From Sulfuriflexus sp. (lineage in GTDB: Bacteria > Pseudomonadota > Gammaproteobacteria > AKS1): DNA of 64,000 bases. Position 1 is the stretch's first letter. Each line of letters begins with the position of its first letter. The stretch covers positions 1-64,000 of the forward strand of contig JAGLUW010000019.1 of assembly GCA_023134145.1 (NCBI GenBank). Reading direction: 5' to 3'. Under the pieces are notes generated by a model, which saw only the letters and a list, made by a program, of their open reading frames with translations, was not told the origin of the DNA and did no database searches. Shown piece after piece: positions 5,139-42,583 of this stretch. The position numbers and the translations under genes were made by a program.

Positions 5139-6175
5139 TGCATTAAAGCGGCTATTTTTGCTGCATTTGGCGCCTCAATAATACCTTTTTCGGTCACAAT
5201 AACGTCAATCAGGCTTGCTGGAGTCACATCAAACACCGGATTCCATGCCTCAGAGCCTTCAGCAGCCATCATTTGACCTGATAATTGCAGTAATTCATCG
5301 CCACTACGGTGTTCAATAGGTATAGATGCGCCATCAGGCACTGCCATATCAATGGTTGAGGTGGGTGCGACCACCATGACCTTAATACCGTGGTATTTGG
5401 CTTGAACTGCGCCAGCGAACGTACCTATCTTATTCGCCACATCACCATTGGCCGCAATACGATCTGAACCAACCACAAACCACTGCACCGAGCCTGCACT
5501 CATTAAGGCAGAAACCGCCCCTTCTGCCACCAAGGTCACTGGAATATTATCCTCTAACAATTCCCAGGCGGTTAAACGAGCTCCCTGCAACCAAGGACGC
5601 GTTTCATCTGCAAAAACTTTACTTAGCTTTTCTTGTTGCCACGCGCTGCGTATCACACCTAACGCGGTACCATAGCCACCTGTTGCCAAGGCTCCCGCAT
5701 TACAATGCGTTAACACGCCTGAACCTGATTCAATAAAAGCGGCGCCTAACTTGCCCATGGTTTTATTAGCGCGAATATCATCGTGATGAATTTTGTGTGC
5801 TGCAGCTAGTAAACGTTCAGTTGGATCGCCGTTGATTTCATTAATCAGATTTTGCATTTGATTGATGGCCCAAAATAAATTGATCGCAGTTGGGCGCGAG
5901 GCTAATAAGATTTTAAGATCATCTTGAATGGTTTGTTTCCAGTTTGATGTTGATTCCACATAACGCTGCCGCGCAGCCGTTACAACACCATAAGCAGCCG
6001 TAATACCAATCGCAGGTGCACCACGCACCACCATGTCGCGAATTGCATCAGCAATAGATTGCACAGTTGTTAATTTAATATATTTAGTTGTTGCAGGAAG
6101 AATCCGTTGGTCAAGCAATTCAAGGGTAGCATTACGCCAGACAATGGGTTGAATATTTTCTTGTTCAGTTTGCAT
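5132..6175 (-). CDS. mtnA: S-methyl-5-thioribose-1-phosphate isomerase
   Basis: Isomerises methylthioribose-1-phosphate to methylthioribulose-1-phosphate in the methionine salvage pathway; related to eIF2B-alpha. Visible signatures are VVRGAPAIGITAAYG, THCNAGALATGGYG with the catalytic-type cysteine, and GSDRIAANGDVANKIGT with the catalytic-type aspartate. The track start at 6190 is a TTG. I prefer the ATG at 6175 (MQTEQEN), giving 347 residues, though neither has a strong ribosome-binding site. No other methionine salvage gene is in the window. It is 33 bp downstream of rlmD and could be co-transcribed. Confidence 0.93.
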   Translation of the reverse strand: MQTEQENIQPIVWRNATLELLDQRILPATTKYIKLTTVQSIADAIRDMVVRGAPAIGITAAYGVVTAARQRYVESTSNWKQTIQDDLKILLASRPTAINLFWAINQMQNLINEINGDPTERLLAAAHKIHHDDIRANKTMGKLGAAFIESGSGVLTHCNAGALATGGYGTALGVIRSAWQQEKLSKVFADETRPWLQGARLTAWELLEDNIPVTLVAEGAVSALMSAGSVQWFVVGSDRIAANGDVANKIGTFAGAVQAKYHGIKVMVVAPTSTIDMAVPDGASIPIEHRSGDELLQLSGQMMAAEGSEAWNPVFDVTPASLIDVIVTEKGIIEAPNAAKIAALMQA

Positions 6176-6208
6176 TATTGTTTTTCTCAACTCTATATCT
6201 TTTAAACG

Positions 6209-7528
6209 TTAGACCTTCTCAAAGACGGCCATTGATTCAACATGCGAGGTATGCGGGAACATATCCATAATCCCCGCGCTACATAAACGATAACCTTGGT
6301 TCTTTACTAATTCACCTGCATCACGTGCGAGCGTTGCGATATTACAAGAAACATAAACAATTCGCTCAGGACCAATCTCTTTCATACGACTCACCACTTC
6401 AAGGGCACCCGTACGCGGCGGATCTAATAACATTCGGTCAATGCCTTTGATTTCTACAGGGATCTCTTTGGTTAAATCCGCAGCGAGATATTCAATATTT
6501 TTAATATTATTATTGCTGGCATTTTGCTTGGCACGATCTACTAATACGTCACTGCCTTCAATACCAATAACCTGTTCGCAACTTTTAGCTAGGGGTAAAC
6601 TAAAATTACCAATACCACAGAATAAATCTAAAACCTTACTATCTTTTTTTAGCTCAAGCAGCTCAATTGCCTGCTTGACCATTTTTTTATTCATGTCGGC
6701 ATTAACTTGCGTGAAATCTGTTGGCAGGAATTCATAACTTACATCATAATCAGGCAAGCTATAAACGAGCTGTGATTCTTCTGGCCACAATGGACTAGCT
6801 GTATCAGGACCTTTGGATTGTAACCAAATATGTAACCCTGTTTCTTGCGCAAAGGTCTTAAGCAATTCAATATCACTTGGTGATAGATCCTCTAGATTAC
6901 GAAATACTAAGGTAGTGTGGTTATCACCTACTGCCACTTCAATTTGCGCAATCTTCTGATAAGCGGCCATACTACGTATCAAGGCCTGTAGCTCTTCAAG
7001 GTGTTGGCCGACCGATTCATGCAACACCATGCAGACATTCATATCAGTTAGGTAACCGCTGCTTTTTTCACGAAAGCCAACTAATAGCTTGTCTTTCTTA
7101 ATAACAAAGCGCACACCAAGGCGTGCCTTACGTCGATAACCGACATTTTCTGTTGTCAGTGGTTGAATGATTTCAGGTATATCTAACTCGGCAAGGTGTT
7201 TGAATTGTTCAACCAATACAGATTGTTTGTGCGCCCGTTGCGACTCGGGTGACATGTGCTGAATACTACAGCCACCGCAAAGTAGAAAGTGAGGACAAAC
7301 AGGCTCAACACGTTCAGGTGAGGCCTTAATGATTTCAGTGACACAACCTTCGTCAAACTTAGCGCGACGAGAAGTATAAACAAACATCACATCTTCACCC
7401 GGCAATGCACCATCTATAAAGATAGTTTTGCCATCAAGGCGTGCAATACCTCGACCTTCATGTGAAATAGATTCAACAGTTGCTGCCACCGGTTCAGTTG
7501 GCAGTTTTTTTCTACGGCGACGCGCCAT
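6209..7528 (-). CDS. rlmD: 23S rRNA (uracil-1939-C5)-methyltransferase
   Basis: SAM-dependent methyltransferase that forms m5U1939 in 23S rRNA. At 439 residues it matches RlmD. Order of parts: an Arg/Lys-rich N-terminus, a TRAM domain (about 10-65), the 4Fe-4S cysteines in CPHFLLCGGC (C78, C84, C87) plus the one in MNVCMVLHE, a SAM-binding motif LDLFCGIGNFSLPLA, and the catalytic cysteine in VYVSCNIATLARDA. It is 18 bp downstream of cysM. The cysM-rlmD pair is a known gammaproteobacterial neighbourhood, often followed by relA, but here mtnA follows. Confidence 0.96.
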   Translation of the reverse strand: MARRRRKKLPTEPVAATVESISHEGRGIARLDGKTIFIDGALPGEDVMFVYTSRRAKFDEGCVTEIIKASPERVEPVCPHFLLCGGCSIQHMSPESQRAHKQSVLVEQFKHLAELDIPEIIQPLTTENVGYRRKARLGVRFVIKKDKLLVGFREKSSGYLTDMNVCMVLHESVGQHLEELQALIRSMAAYQKIAQIEVAVGDNHTTLVFRNLEDLSPSDIELLKTFAQETGLHIWLQSKGPDTASPLWPEESQLVYSLPDYDVSYEFLPTDFTQVNADMNKKMVKQAIELLELKKDSKVLDLFCGIGNFSLPLAKSCEQVIGIEGSDVLVDRAKQNASNNNIKNIEYLAADLTKEIPVEIKGIDRMLLDPPRTGALEVVSRMKEIGPERIVYVSCNIATLARDAGELVKNQGYRLCSAGIMDMFPHTSHVESMAVFEKV

Positions 7529-37033: not shown

Positions 37034-37487
37034 AAACAGGTGCTGCCGTAGTAAAAATACAGTAGCATGCGCACAGTTTAGTGAAACCTCGGACACCTCA
37101 TGAAATTACATCACAACAACCAAGATGGCCTGAATATAATCAAGGCCTACACTGAAAATAGTGTATCCATTAATGAGGAAATCTACGCTCGTAGCGTTAT
37201 TGTGCAAGCCCACTACCTTGAATCAGCGTGGGCACCTCAAAGTATTGATGAACTGGATGGTGCGGCAATCCGAGAACTTGCCAAACTTGATACAGAGATT
37301 ATTCTCTTAGGCACCGGACAGAAACAACGTTTTCCTGATCGTCGGTTATTTGTACCTTTGTATGATCGAAATATTGGTATTGAAGTGATGAATACGCCAG
37401 CAGCGTGTCGTACTTATAATATTTTGTTAGAAGAAGGTCGTGCTGTTACTGCTGCGTTGTTAATAGATTAAAAGAACACCTGTTTAA
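37032..37487. repeat. 11-bp inverted repeats flanking the Mth938-like gene
   Basis: TTAAACAGGTG at 37032-37042 and its exact complement CACCTGTTTAA at 37477-37487 bracket the gene. The right copy is part of a smaller palindrome, CCTGTTTAACAGG. No transposase or target duplication was seen, so a mobile origin is only a possibility. Confidence 0.3.
37100..37471 (+). CDS. Mth938-like domain protein (DUF498/NDUFAF3 family)
   Basis: A soluble protein of 123 residues. The family's beta-alpha fold is recognisable from ARSVIVQAHYLESAWAP, IILLGTGQKQRFPDRRL, IGIEVMNTPAACRTYNILLEEGRAVTAALLI. Human NDUFAF3 in this family helps complex I assembly; bacterial members have no proven role. It is a single gene, divergent from alaC and convergent with the orphan membrane protein. 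Confidence 0.88.
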   Translation: MKLHHNNQDGLNIIKAYTENSVSINEEIYARSVIVQAHYLESAWAPQSIDELDGAAIRELAKLDTEIILLGTGQKQRFPDRRLFVPLYDRNIGIEVMNTPAACRTYNILLEEGRAVTAALLID

Positions 37488-37533
37488 CAGGCTCAAGAAA
37501 GGCGAACGATAATCATAGTGCCCTCCCCTCGGT

Positions 37534-37953
37534 TTATTCTATATCCACCTGCGTCTTCCTATTGGCGATATACCAAAATGCCAGTGAAACCGAAACAGAA
37601 AAATAGGCCATTAATAAATAAAATGTCCAGCTTCCAAAATTATAATTCAAGGCGGCAACAACTATCGTCGGGATGATACTTACAAGTGCGGTTGCATAAA
37701 CATTATTTTTATTAAACTCAATTAAAACCAAATAAGCAGGAAGACCATAGACAATAGTGAATATATAACTGATTACTATGCCATACATAGCTATTAGTAA
37801 GCCTAATCGATACATATCGAATATATCCGTTTGGCTTTCTCGAGTAACGACAACAAACACGGTGATAGCAATAAGCATGGCAGGCACTGTCGACAGAGGT
37901 CCCACCAAAACTGCCAATACCATTTTCCTAGTAGCCTTTGAGAAGGTATGCAT
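37534..37953 (-). CDS. hypothetical four-helix membrane protein
   Basis: A 139-residue protein that I do not recognise. Four hydrophobic segments can be seen (about 10-35, 48-72, 80-100 and 105-130), linked by short polar loops, ending in NRKTQVDIE. It starts 3 bp after the DUF4166 stop, so it is the last gene of the five-gene cassette. It has no conserved motif that I can name. Confidence 0.7.
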   Translation of the reverse strand: MHTFSKATRKMVLAVLVGPLSTVPAMLIAITVFVVVTRESQTDIFDMYRLGLLIAMYGIVISYIFTIVYGLPAYLVLIEFNKNNVYATALVSIIPTIVVAALNYNFGSWTFYLLMAYFSVSVSLAFWYIANRKTQVDIE

Positions 37954-37956
37954 TAT

Positions 37957-38556
37957 TTAATCTCCACTACAATTAGTTAACTTTCTTGTCTCAAATTCTC
38001 CAGCATAGCGATATACCTGCCCGAACAATGGATGGTGTAACCGAAAGTCCATCGCGAAATGTGTCGCATCCAACTCAGATTCAACAATCGTGGTATGACC
38101 AAGCATTAACCACTCCGGTAATGGTAAGCGTATACGGCCCAGCTGAATAACATAATGTATGCCTTCATAATACAACTTATTCTCCTTTACATAGACGGCC
38201 ATGCGTAAACCTAGAAATGGATTCACGTATTCGATAAGTTGATTGCCACCTGCATAAACCCAACAACTTTTGAATAAGATAGTTTCACCATCAGGGAACC
38301 TCAGTGTACGTTCCCAATATTGAATTTCACCTTTCATTATTTTTTTAACTGTTGCGGGAATCATTTTTCCACGTCGATTAAGTAACGCACCAAATAAATG
38401 TAATACGTTCAGAAAAATCTGCATCGCACGTGGATATTCAATATCTAAGACACCAACATCTGTATTAACGCTTGTCTGATAGTGCGCGAGTAATGTAGGC
38501 GGTAACTCTTCCCATTGTTTACCCAATGCTTGATACATAATATTTTTTTCACTCAC
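37957..38556 (-). CDS. DUF4166 domain protein
   Basis: A 199-residue protein matching DUF4166 in size and pattern: QALGKQWEELPPTLLAHYQ at the N-terminus, then FGALLNRRGKMIPA and WERTLRFPDGETILFKSCWVY. No transmembrane segment or signal peptide is evident. DUF4166 proteins often occur near or fused to NAD(P)-binding SDR proteins, as here, but their activity is unknown to me. It lies 10 bp downstream of the DUF2269 gene. Confidence 0.8.
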   Translation of the reverse strand: MSEKNIMYQALGKQWEELPPTLLAHYQTSVNTDVGVLDIEYPRAMQIFLNVLHLFGALLNRRGKMIPATVKKIMKGEIQYWERTLRFPDGETILFKSCWVYAGGNQLIEYVNPFLGLRMAVYVKENKLYYEGIHYVIQLGRIRLPLPEWLMLGHTTIVESELDATHFAMDFRLHHPLFGQVYRYAGEFETRKLTNCSGD

Positions 38557-38566
38557 CTATCACCTC

Positions 38567-39031
38567 CTAAGCGAATTTATAAACCATCAGTAGAACAATC
38601 AGTACCATTGAAATAAATGCTGGCACACCCAACCAAAACCAATAATGAACATATCGCCAGTATTGTTCAGGTAAAGCGCAGCCAGACATATTGGCCTGCT
38701 CAGATAGTTCTTGCATACGGATCTGCAACCACAACACCGGAATCCAACAAGCTCCAGCCAACGCATATAACAATAAGCTCGTCATTACCCATGGCGTTGT
38801 ATACGGAATATCCAGCAACAACAACATGCCCACTCCCGTCATAGGTTGAATCAAGATAGACGGCGTAGTGAACAACCAATCAGCCAACACAACTTGCCGA
38901 TTAGTCGCCGCGATATGCACGACATTTCCACTGCGATCAGACATCCATTTATACCAAGCACTCCCTAAGCCGATTCCAAACAGCACGACCATACTGAGTA
39001 AATGTATGGTCTTCAGGCTAAGGTAAATCAT
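38567..39031 (-). CDS. DUF2269 family integral membrane protein
   Basis: A 154-residue protein with four hydrophobic segments (about 5-25, 45-72, 80-103 and 130-152). The beginning LSLKTIHLLSMVVLFGIGLG and the segment ADWLFTTPSILIQPMTGVGMLL fit DUF2269. The conserved histidine in the first helix (KTIHLLS) could bind a cofactor, which is inference. Its start overlaps the SDR gene by 14 bp. Confidence 0.82.
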   Translation of the reverse strand: MIYLSLKTIHLLSMVVLFGIGLGSAWYKWMSDRSGNVVHIAATNRQVVLADWLFTTPSILIQPMTGVGMLLLLDIPYTTPWVMTSLLLYALAGACWIPVLWLQIRMQELSEQANMSGCALPEQYWRYVHYWFWLGVPAFISMVLIVLLMVYKFA

Positions 39032-39839
39032 GAGGCATCCTCCCGAGTAGTTCGCTTAGCTGCTGTACATCTGCCGTATTACCTTGTTGAAGCATGCGCA
39101 AATTATCAGGGTGCAGCAGCGGGACAACAAAATGACCAAGGTAAGAAAGTACCAACATCAACTTGAATGGAACGGAAAGAGTGTTCGCCGTATTTTTACC
39201 GGCTTTGAGACGTAACCGTTGCAGCCAACCAGAAAAACTAATGACACGAGGACCAACAATATCAATAGTGCGTCGTGTCGATGTCGCATCTATGCAAGCC
39301 AACACCGCATCCACCAAATCTGTGATATGCACGGGCTGAATTAATTGCGTGCCCTGCTCAACCACTGGTATCAATGGTAAATTTGCCATTTGTTTAAATA
39401 ACGCAGTACTCTTTCCCCCAGTTCCGTACACCAGTGAAGGACGCAAAACAAACCACTCTAACGGTAAGCTACGCAAGAGATCATCGGCCGATTTTTTGCT
39501 TAACTGATATGGTGTGAATGCCTCATCATCAGCACCTAATGATGAAATTTGGACAACACGTTCTACACCTACCTCCACACAAGCGTGAAACAATGCGACC
39601 GGTGCCTGTGTATGTAAAATATTAAATGTTTGTCCGCGTGTCTCAGCAATAATCCCAACACTATTAATGACTACTTGGACCCCTTGCAAATAAGGCAACC
39701 AGTCGTCTGCTTTTAGTAAGTGATTAAAATCCATACCGCGACTACGACTAGCAATAATCAACTCATGTCCGGCCAGTTCTAATGCTGTAGTGATATGGCT
39801 ACCAATAAATCCACTACTACCTGTTAGCAAAATTTTCAT
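39018..39839 (-). CDS. NAD(P)-binding atypical SDR protein
   Basis: A 273-residue Rossmann-fold protein of the extended/atypical short-chain dehydrogenase group. The nucleotide-binding motif is LLTGSSGFIGSHI, the active-site type YxxxK is present as YQLSKKSADD, and VVQISSLGAD precedes it. The C-terminal part is hydrophobic (VPFKLMLVLSYLGHFVVPLL), which suggests membrane contact. The substrate is unknown. It is translationally coupled to both neighbours (4-bp and 14-bp overlaps). Confidence 0.85.
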   Translation of the reverse strand: MKILLTGSSGFIGSHITTALELAGHELIIASRSRGMDFNHLLKADDWLPYLQGVQVVINSVGIIAETRGQTFNILHTQAPVALFHACVEVGVERVVQISSLGADDEAFTPYQLSKKSADDLLRSLPLEWFVLRPSLVYGTGGKSTALFKQMANLPLIPVVEQGTQLIQPVHITDLVDAVLACIDATSTRRTIDIVGPRVISFSGWLQRLRLKAGKNTANTLSVPFKLMLVLSYLGHFVVPLLHPDNLRMLQQGNTADVQQLSELLGRMPHDLP

Positions 39840-40213
39840 TTGCTCGCCGCTTCAGCATGTAATGATTTATTATGCACTGCACGGTTACGCCATTTTGCGA
39901 TAGCGATTATATTAAGCAGATGCAGTGCTCCTAACACCAGCAATACAACACCAATTTGTCCACTCAAAAACTCAATGCAGACTCGTAATGTTTCTATATT
40001 CTTGTGGGTTTTCAATGCAAGAAGAATGTAGCCCAAATTCAGCAAATAAAAGCCAACCACAAGTAAATGATTAACCGACTCGGCTAAGGTTTCATTGCCA
40101 TCAAAACTGTCTACCAAAAACACTTGGCCATTTTTGCTCAAGGTGCGTGCGACCCATATGGTCATTGCAATACTGATAACAATGTAAACTGCGTACGTAA
40201 ATTCAATCATCAT
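39836..40213 (-). CDS. conserved small integral membrane protein
   Basis: A 125-residue protein with three hydrophobic segments (about 3-20, 48-66 and 84-108). The middle part VDSFDGNETLAESVNHLLVVGFYLLNLGYILLAL (read in parts) looks strongly conserved, and I believe similar proteins occur in distant phyla, but I cannot name the family. It is the first gene of the cassette, with AGGAG six bases before its first ATG. The 157 bp upstream hold the direct repeats described separately. Confidence 0.75.
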   Translation of the reverse strand: MMIEFTYAVYIVISIAMTIWVARTLSKNGQVFLVDSFDGNETLAESVNHLLVVGFYLLNLGYILLALKTHKNIETLRVCIEFLSGQIGVVLLVLGALHLLNIIAIAKWRNRAVHNKSLHAEAASK

Positions 40214-40267
40214 TTTTAACTCCTATGTCATTGGTTAACTCTCATGACTAAAGTTACGGATGATTGG

Positions 40268-40362
40268 ATATAATCGCTTCCAAAATGATAAAAGATGAAT
40301 AGAAAAAGATTAAGTCATCTTCATTCAATGACTTGGAGTATTCCATAATGATAAAAGAAGAA
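40268..40362 (-). promoter_or_regulatory. paired 22-bp direct repeats, candidate AraC-type operators
   Basis: TTCCA(A/T)AATGATAAAAGA(T/A)GAA occurs at 40278-40299 and 40341-40362 with only two differences. The copies are exactly 63 bp apart, close to six helical turns. They lie between the AraC-type gene and the cassette it precedes. On the minus strand TTATAT (40273-40268) lies 4 bp after the proximal copy, so that copy would cover the -35 region, as AraC-type activators often do. Confidence 0.6.
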
Positions 40363-40370
40363 GATAGTGA

Positions 40371-41378
40371 CTAATTTAATACCGTTTTTCGGTAATTTCC
40401 CGGAGACTCCCCGGTTATTTCCTTAAAGGCTGCATAGAAATTAGATTGTGACTTAAAGCCAACCTCCATACTGATCGATAAAACCGATGCATCGGCTTCT
40501 GTTTTTAGTAATTGTTTGGCCGCCTCTATGCGCTGCAGACGAATATATTGCGAAAAACCCATGTCATACTGAGAATTAATCAACTCTGATAACTGGTGAG
40601 GAGAGATATTCATTGCACCAGCCAACAACGCTAGGCTCAGATTCTCATTCTGGTACATCTTGGAAGCGGTGAGGTATTCATTAAGCGCCTGTTTGCAGGC
40701 CTCAACATCGAGGTTAGCCAATGTAGAGTTTGAATAACCTAATCTCACCACCTCATCAATTTCACTCAATACATTGGGGAACACAATGAGCGTCCCCGTA
40801 ACCAGAATCAAACTCAGCCCAATCCCCGTGGTGTAAAAATGATAAAAATAAGCGACATCAATATAAGTCGCGGCAAAACCAAGGATCAATACGAAAATAG
40901 CGACGACAGTAAAAAATGTAAAGAAAATAAAAACCAAACCAAATCGTTTACGTACGCCCCTAAGGTTATAAGCAATATTGGTTAACCAAAGACAGTAACC
41001 CGTGCCAATTAGAAAGGCAGTGGGTACGGTTACTTCACGTGGTGCTATAAACGCTAATGGTAAAGGTAAGAAATGCAGTAAATGGTAAAGTTTAACGCTG
41101 AGTTCAGGAAATAAAATAGCTCGGCTAAAAAAATAAAACATGGGTGGTAGAAAAAGAATTAAAAGCCGGTAATCAACGGTAGATAAAGGATCTACACCTG
41201 CAGTATAAAAGTAATAATGGTGATACTGCGCCAGCGCTAATCCCCCTAATAACCCCACACAAGAGCAAAGCGTCATCCAGCCCTTATTCACATGCTTAAT
41301 AAAGAATAAATAAGAAACACATAGCGTTATCGCAATAATGATCGAAAAACCGATATTGAAGATACTAATAATTTCCAT
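40371..41378 (-). CDS. membrane-anchored AraC family transcription regulator
   Basis: About 335 residues from the ATG at 41378 (MEIISIFNIGF). The track start at 41399 is GTG. The N-terminal two-thirds hold about seven hydrophobic segments (roughly 1-220), and the C-terminal 100 residues are an AraC DNA-binding domain with two helix-turn-helix units (LSLALLAGAMNISPHQLSELI, and VLSISMEVGFKSQSNFYAAFKE). Regulators of this kind probably read a signal in or near the membrane. The cassette downstream on the same strand is its likely target, and the 22-bp repeats lie between. Confidence 0.9.
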   Translation of the reverse strand: MEIISIFNIGFSIIIAITLCVSYLFFIKHVNKGWMTLCSCVGLLGGLALAQYHHYYFYTAGVDPLSTVDYRLLILFLPPMFYFFSRAILFPELSVKLYHLLHFLPLPLAFIAPREVTVPTAFLIGTGYCLWLTNIAYNLRGVRKRFGLVFIFFTFFTVVAIFVLILGFAATYIDVAYFYHFYTTGIGLSLILVTGTLIVFPNVLSEIDEVVRLGYSNSTLANLDVEACKQALNEYLTASKMYQNENLSLALLAGAMNISPHQLSELINSQYDMGFSQYIRLQRIEAAKQLLKTEADASVLSISMEVGFKSQSNFYAAFKEITGESPGNYRKTVLN

Positions 41379-41528
41379 ATCACGAGTATAAAGTGACACA
41401 GATTAATTCTCTACCAATAAACAGTTCAATATTTGTCAATTCATTCGACAATTATACGTCCTTCCGTTAATTCATGATTTAAATACACATCATCGCTGAT
41501 TCGTCGCCTGCTGTAGAAATAACTAAAT

Positions 41529-41556
41529 AAAAAGGCGGCCATTTGGCCGCCTTTTT
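41529..41556 (-). terminator. Rho-independent terminator of rpoS
   Basis: GGCGGCC-AAAT-GGCCGCC followed by TTTTT on the minus strand, with AAAAA before it: a perfect 7-bp GC stem extended by A-T pairs. It lies 20 bp after the rpoS stop and separates rpoS from the AraC-type gene. It would work in both directions. Confidence 0.92.
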
Positions 41557-41575
41557 ATAACTATCAATATTGTAA

Positions 41576-42583
41576 TCAATCTTCTCTAAACAAAGCATCA
41601 ATCGAATAACCATCACGTTCCAATACTTCTCGTAAACGTCTTAAGGCTTCAATCTGAATCTGACGAACACGTTCACGTGTTACACCAATTTCATTACCCA
41701 CTTCTTCAAGAGTAGAAATTTCATAGCCATGTAAACCAAAGCGACGTTCAACAACTTCACGTTGTTTGTCGTTTAGTTGATCAAGCCAACCATCAATCCG
41801 ACCTTTGACATCATTGTTCTGTAATAAACCCGCTGGATCATTTAGACCTTCGTCACGAATTGAATCAACCACGGTCGCATCGGAATCACGTCCTAATGGT
41901 GTATCAATAGAAGTAACGCGCACATTCAAGCCCATCATGCGTTTTACATTTGCAATCGGCTTATCAAGCATTCGTGCTACATCTTCAGGTGTTGGCTCGT
42001 GTGATAGTTCTTGGGTTAGTTTACGCGCGGCACGCAGGTAAACATTCATTTCTTTCACAACATGAATCGGCAGGCGAATCGTTCGCGTCTGGTTCATGAT
42101 GGCGCGTTCAATTGTTTGACGAATCCACCATGTTGCATAAGTAGAGAAACGGAAACCACGTTCAGGGTCGAATTTTTCAACCGCTCTTATCAGCCCGAGA
42201 TTACCTTCTTCGATAAGGTCGAGTAGCGCAAGGCCACGATTCATATAACGACGAGCAATCTTAACCACTAAGCGAAGGTTACTCTCGATCATGCGAGTAC
42301 GGCCGGCTTCTTCGCCACGCTGTACCATTCTCGCGTAATACACTTCTTCTTCTGCAGATAATAATGGGGAAGCACCTATTTCGCTTAAGTACAGACGCGT
42401 TGCATCTGCCTCAGCCGGCCTCCCTGCACGTTTGGCCTCTTTCGGCTTAGCTTTAGCCTTAACAGGTGCTGGCTTTTCTACTTCTAATTCCTTTTCGATA
42501 GAATCAACGTTCACATTACTACCCTCCATAACGTCTGGTAACGCATCACTGGGTGCTGGCGTACTAGACTTTTTGCGCGGCAT
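41576..42583 (-). CDS. rpoS: RNA polymerase sigma factor RpoS
   Basis: Stationary-phase and general-stress sigma factor, 335 residues. Region 1.2 is [21 protein letters not shown]. Region 2 includes [55 protein letters not shown] (read in parts), and region 4 includes [20 protein letters not shown] Lys/Ala/Pro-rich N-terminal extension of about 50 residues precedes region 1.2. It follows nlpD, the conserved order, and has AAGGAG before its ATG. Confidence 0.98.

Follow-up and report, generated by a model that had tools for sequence, protein, structure and literature searches.

A recurrent SDR–DUF2269–DUF4166 cassette behind a predicted seven-helix membrane AraC-type regulator in Sulfuriflexus sp.

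Introduction

ToxR, TcpP and CadC each carry a membrane sensor and a DNA-binding domain on one polypeptide chain, with a single helix joined to a winged helix. Here we describe a protein of the same one-chain design in which a predicted seven-helix sensor is joined instead to an AraC-type helix-turn-helix (HTH), together with the genes directly behind it. The locus lies within a 64,000-nucleotide stretch of Sulfuriflexus sp. (GenBank assembly GCA_023134145.1, contig JAGLUW010000019.1, positions 1 to 64,000), hereafter the window, taken from a draft genome that is 89% complete. Placed between rpoS and a DUF498 gene, the cassette comprises the AraC-type gene and five genes encoding a 125-aa membrane protein, an atypical short-chain dehydrogenase/reductase (SDR), a DUF2269 protein, a DUF4166 protein and a 139-aa membrane protein.

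The papers searched yielded no mention of DUF4166 and two of DUF2269, both in passing; a distant similarity between DUF2269 and the membrane domain of PuuD, an oxidase, has been published (PMC4562309). An earlier sequence-only reading of the window had proposed that the regulator senses an envelope or lipid signal and switches on a membrane-associated oxidoreductase system. We followed up this proposal computationally, using gene maps based on open reading frames (ORFs) with BLAST or hidden Markov model labels rather than curated annotation, and class tallies that are samples from a larger group.

Results

The expectation that the SDR, DUF2269 and DUF4166 genes recur together was borne out. 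DUF4166 was present in 28 of 369 class genomes, and among loci fetched around it 12, from 11 gammaproteobacterial genomes, held all three families; seven further loci showed DUF4166 together with an SDR-like stretch. As DUF2269 was found in only 35 of 185 genomes, mostly as one copy each, adjacency at the rate seen is far beyond chance. An SDR–DUF2269 pair without DUF4166 is the commoner core: an SDR gene adjoined DUF2269 in about half of 30 DUF2269 loci, the SDR of such pairs was often fused to a DoxX_3 domain, and plasmid annotations from Azospirillum, Pseudoroseomonas and Bosea list such pairs too. That the full cassette moves on plasmids was considered and rejected, with DUF4166 appearing in two plasmid records only. 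Judged from these comparisons of gene content and order, the cassette is a genuine recurrent system.

The five genes did not hold together as one unit, as had been supposed, and this grouping was rejected: the last gene was unmatched elsewhere, the first occupies a variable slot, and many related sets are run by a MarR-type regulator. Between regulator and SDR, the window and its congener (L051) carry the 125-aa type, three loci (L035, L042, L010) a 115-aa type, L034 a DCC1-like thiol-disulfide oxidoreductase, and L037 nothing. The 139-aa protein (37534–37953, minus strand) had been described as lacking a recognisable family and perhaps lineage-specific. In agreement, it matched no Pfam family, had no counterpart in any other cassette and found only weak matches across 185 genomes; on this comparative evidence its gene is a lineage-specific passenger outside the conserved unit. 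At the same position in congener G003, behind DUF4166, lies an apparent frameshifted DCC1-like gene (L009, 4592–4924).

The 125-aa protein (39836–40213, minus strand), with about three hydrophobic segments and no Pfam family, has a 79–81% relative in the congener and unlinked relatives in G161, G246 and G015. In G161 a cassette-type MarR gene is directly followed by the 125-aa relative and a weak DCC1-like match (L122, 3544–5099), an arrangement suggesting that the 125-aa protein belongs to the same network. Elsewhere, DUF4166 or DUF2269 adjoined a saccharopine-dehydrogenase-type NADP-binding protein, another Rossmann partner (L129, 4556–6264; L131, 3124–5317; L183, 1831–3420), and a 664-aa ORF beside a DUF4166 stretch ended C-terminally in DUF2269 (L050, 6312–8850).

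The regulator (40371–41378, minus strand) has about seven N-terminal membrane helices and a C-terminal AraC/XylS-type HTH that exceeded Pfam cut-offs for both HTH_18 (PF12833, E 3e-22) and HTH_AraC (E 3e-12). In the AlphaFold model of the N-terminus (predicted local distance difference test, pLDDT, 81) about seven helices bundle together, of which one is short or broken, consistent with the seven or so membrane segments read from the sequence earlier. The ORF can be read from a GTG at 41399; homologues place the start at the ATG at 41378, the cassette end originally given. Homology of the sensor domain to G-protein-coupled or adiponectin receptors was rejected, the best E value of 0.02 not being significant.

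Genes of the same type directly precede seven related cassettes (L010, L035, L037, L040, L041, L042 and L051; 36–82% identity); behind that of L040 lie DUF4166 and a YfcH-type SDR. Such AraC proteins occurred in 13 of 369 genomes, and DUF4166 was present in nine of those 13 versus 28 of 369 overall. The four AraC-bearing genomes without DUF4166, three of them from one genus, displayed other gene contexts. One same-type gene precedes a fatty-acid desaturase operon (L179, 1839–4972), with a half-site in the gap and no fitting −10, and another is followed by a desaturase and then an SDR relative, without operator (L182, 3406–6468). These desaturase loci lend indirect support to the proposed lipid or envelope signal. 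Within a single genus (G352, G257 and G145; L180, L181 and L182), the same AraC type heads differing sets, either a hydrolase with an ABC transporter or a desaturase with an SDR.

The gap of 157 bp between the AraC gene and the operon holds two direct repeats of the TATCAWWYYGGAAG type, a candidate control element. On the minus strand, the predicted promoter-distal half-site TATCATTATGGAAT (14 bp, 40340–40353) is followed by the predicted promoter-proximal half-site TATCATTTTGGAAG (14 bp, 40277–40290), at the −35 position, and by a −10-like hexamer, TAACTT (40251–40256). The repeats are 63 bp (six helical turns) apart in L040, L009/L051 and the window; in L010, L035 and L042 the distance is 32 bp (three turns). 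A half-site matrix trained on L035, L042 and L010 only located both sites in each of three held-out gaps (L040, L009 and the window), and neither score was reached by any of 1000 dinucleotide shuffles; the window and L009, being congeners, count as one case, and L040 is independent. L037 showed a single strong site and L041 a weak match only.

In all eight gaps the GGAAG (or GGAGT) of the proximal site was followed, at a distance of exactly 20 nt, by the −10-like hexamer. This hexamer was TAnnnT-like in most: TAACTT in the window, TAATTT in L009, TATGCT in L035, L042 and L040, TAGCTT in L037, TGTAAT in L041 and GACACT in L010. A later case read by eye, L036, has GATCATTTAGAAC and TATCAAAATGGAAG 32 bp apart and TAATGT at the same distance, its AraC gene being on another contig (L178). 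This geometry of repeats and hexamer is the one expected of an AraC-type activator binding direct repeats and touching RNA polymerase at −35, and it suggests an activator rather than a repressor. The earlier placement of a membrane AraC regulator over the cassette thus gains from both the recurrence of its gene in front and the conserved promoter elements, and we consider the regulatory reading well supported at the sequence level.

The strict half-site pair occurred in the window's genome here only; a search of that genome with the strict half-site pattern for further regulon members gave background singles only, the reversed pattern being equally frequent. In an AraC-bearing genome (G246), a high-scoring half-site lies about 140 bp upstream of an unlinked 125-aa-type gene (L123, 3731); it is accompanied by neither a second site at 32 or 63 bp nor a suitable −10 and was left without assignment. 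Scanning the region for consensus promoters returned fewer hits than did shuffles, and the result was not used.

Cassette genes in ten other loci were accompanied by a MarR-type regulator (L034, L038, L039, L043, L048, L049, L122, L125, L132 and L133). These proteins are nearest to CudC and score far under the CudC cut-off. A palindrome of the TTTCTGTnnnnACAGAAA type overlies the promoter in all ten, 13–49 bp before the MarR start, with one altered arm base in three.

Pfam matches recovered each of the family calls made earlier (SDR, DUF2269, DUF4166 and AraC). The 273-aa SDR (39018–39839, minus strand; Epimerase, PF01370, E 1e-17) is closest to NDUFA9/39-kDa complex I subunits, the name borne by most of its 29 PDB sequence matches. 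In the alignment the glycine motif, R32, S99 and K115 were conserved, and Y111 nearly so. The window SDR is without the C-terminal DoxX_3 domain common among its relatives, and within the window its gene is not near complex I genes.

The DUF2269 protein (38567–39031, minus strand) scored 175.8 bits against PF10027 versus a gathering score of 28 (E 8e-52). Compared as profiles, DUF2269 and HemJ matched collinearly over their full length (E 2.5e-4 or 4e-5), with H10 of the former aligned to H7 of the latter, the invariant histidine of the first helix; the negative controls (DoxX, the AraC membrane domain and HemJ in reverse) all gave E > 0.5. The published PuuD-domain similarity (PMC4562309) points the same way. 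By direct search the protein matched PF10027 only, with no PF03653 match over the gathering score. That it serves as the genome's HemJ was rejected, as a separate HemJ gene is present elsewhere in the genome.

The DUF4166 protein (37957–38556, minus strand) scored 99.7 bits against PF13761 versus a gathering score of 23 (E 2e-28). Its AlphaFold model (pLDDT 92.9) has about 11 strands, and the nearest solved folds are those of Rv0813, Rv2717c, FABP3 and nitrobindin, which are lipid- or heme-binding calycin-like barrels. A search for sequence kinship with nitrobindin or FABP calycins gave no such Pfam match, and neither DUF4166 nor DUF2269 had a credible sequence relative in the PDB.

The rpoS–DUF498 interval (window 37100–41576) is a variable site in the genus, with three contents seen: the cassette, a chemoreceptor set and a hybrid kinase. 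Congener G001 carries a chemoreceptor and a nucleotidyltransferase-like gene there (L065), and G002 a hybrid histidine kinase of 1106 aa (L066); DUF4166 is absent from both genomes, as is a full-length match to the window AraC protein. A third congener, G003 (L009, L051), has its cassette at another site, near a carbonic anhydrase gene. This unrelated cargo, and the other site in G003, indicate that the cassette is accessory and found at differing sites. The cassette of L035 has a phage-type integrase gene nearby (6260–7357), and that of L042 a ParB-type gene (5393–6247), a hint at mobility.

ORF coordinates reproduced exactly the reported spacing of the five minus-strand genes, with two overlaps (4 and 14 bp) and two gaps (10 and 3 bp). 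The cassette had also been singled out as the only non-core part of the window, and the remaining ORFs, where 190 aa or longer, indeed read by eye as housekeeping (gyrA, lepA, rpoE, nadB, thrC, eno, pyrG, dnaE, lpxA/B/D, bamA and others). A strong intrinsic terminator behind rpoS (41527–41558, minus strand; 14-pair stem and T run) sets rpoS apart from the AraC gene. Because the gap holding the predicted operator means that the AraC gene need not share the transcript of the five genes, the two are probably separate transcription units.

Discussion

We propose, with a probability of roughly 0.48, that a one-component AraC-type activator in the membrane drives an NADPH-dependent membrane redox module, likely acting on lipid acyl chains. 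The regulator would sense membrane state through its seven-helix domain, bind a pair of direct half-sites separated by six helical turns, with the nearer at −35, and activate a single promoter, from which the operon directly behind its gene is transcribed. The conserved operon products would form a redox module at the membrane surface, in which the NDUFA9-like SDR would bind NADPH, the HemJ-like four-helix DUF2269 protein may hold heme or quinone, and the calycin-like DUF4166 protein would likely provide a hydrophobic pocket. Acting together, the three would probably carry out the reduction or oxidation of a hydrophobic substrate bound to the membrane, the likeliest being a lipid acyl chain. 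We hold the regulatory part of this proposal, where recurrence, gene order, operator and promoter geometry and family assignments can be read from the DNA itself, with much more confidence than the chemistry. Activation as opposed to repression, the sensed signal, the cofactors and the substrate are what we infer, a lipid substrate being modestly favoured because of the desaturase loci and the DUF4166 fold.

Several observations weigh against this proposal. A structure search with the AraC membrane domain gave no significant fold match (best E 0.02, template modelling (TM) score about 0.5–0.6, a generic helix-bundle likeness). The DUF2269–HemJ link is weak, with a probability of 43% from shallow profiles, and the fold matches of DUF4166 are modest (TM about 0.36–0.53). 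Behind the same-type AraC genes of L180 and L181 are hydrolase and ABC-transporter genes, not lipid enzymes. Finally, since the same enzymes are often under MarR control, the signal sensed by the AraC protein may be uninformative about the substrate.

Kinship with NDUFA9, a complex I subunit, and with HemJ would equally allow a quinone-side respiratory role, in which the SDR passes NADPH electrons via DUF2269 to the quinone pool or reduces quinone, DUF4166 plays an accessory part and the AraC protein responds to the redox state of quinone. The DoxX_3 domain on many of the SDRs fits such a module. However, the cassettes examined contain no respiratory genes, and DUF4166, like the desaturase contexts of same-type AraC genes, points to lipids; we regard a quinone-side role as unlikely, if worth keeping in view. 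We judge it improbable that the cassette instead detoxifies or repairs oxidised or reactive hydrophobic compounds, induced by stress via AraC or MarR, rather than performing biosynthetic lipid modification. SDRs are often carbonyl reducers, DCC1-like thiol-disulfide oxidoreductases stand alongside several sets, and in other genera the same enzymes come under MarR-type regulators with a palindrome at the promoter, all as such a role would have it, but the cassettes have no recurring stress or efflux genes. A chance gathering of passengers with neither shared control nor shared function, of the kind hinted at by the unrelated cargo of two congeners in the interval and by the 139-aa gene, is very improbable given a gene set, order and operator conserved across genera and chromosomal sites, and is largely contradicted by the held-out operator test.

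If the acyl-chain proposal is correct, the system would offer a one-protein route from membrane state to expression of lipid-modifying genes. A broader view, which we find possible but doubtful, is that seven-transmembrane (7-TM) AraC proteins constitute a class of bacterial receptors, each a seven-helix bundle and a transcription factor directly linked in one protein, that read membrane state and run several kinds of lipid-modifying operons, with SDR–DUF2269–DUF4166 as one such operon encoding an undescribed NADPH-dependent acyl-chain or lipid redox complex. For two widespread families of unknown function, the analysis supplies a set of partners, a fold or remote kin, and a predicted switch at the promoter, and the predicted operator would make a simple reporter with which to screen for the signal of a 7-TM membrane regulator.

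Among described proteins, NDUFA9 resembles the SDR in its glycine-rich NAD(P)-binding motif and in how its conserved blocks are ordered; the SDR differs in its DUF2269 and DUF4166 partners, in a Tyr-Lys pair present in nearly all cassette members and in the DoxX_3 domain of many relatives. HemJ (PF03653, protoporphyrinogen oxidase/dehydrogenase) is, like DUF2269, a four-helix membrane protein of about 150 aa, whereas most invariant HemJ residues are missing from DUF2269. Barrels of the nitrobindin/FABP calycin-like type are the nearest solved folds to the DUF4166 model, with no match of sequence family. The closest arrangements overall are the MarR-run SDR(-DoxX)-DUF2269 sets (L034, L038, L039, L043, L132 and L133), which have the same enzymes in the same order, partly with DUF4166 and DCC1-like genes, and which differ from the window in carrying a CudC-nearest MarR protein and the palindrome in place of the AraC-7TM activator.

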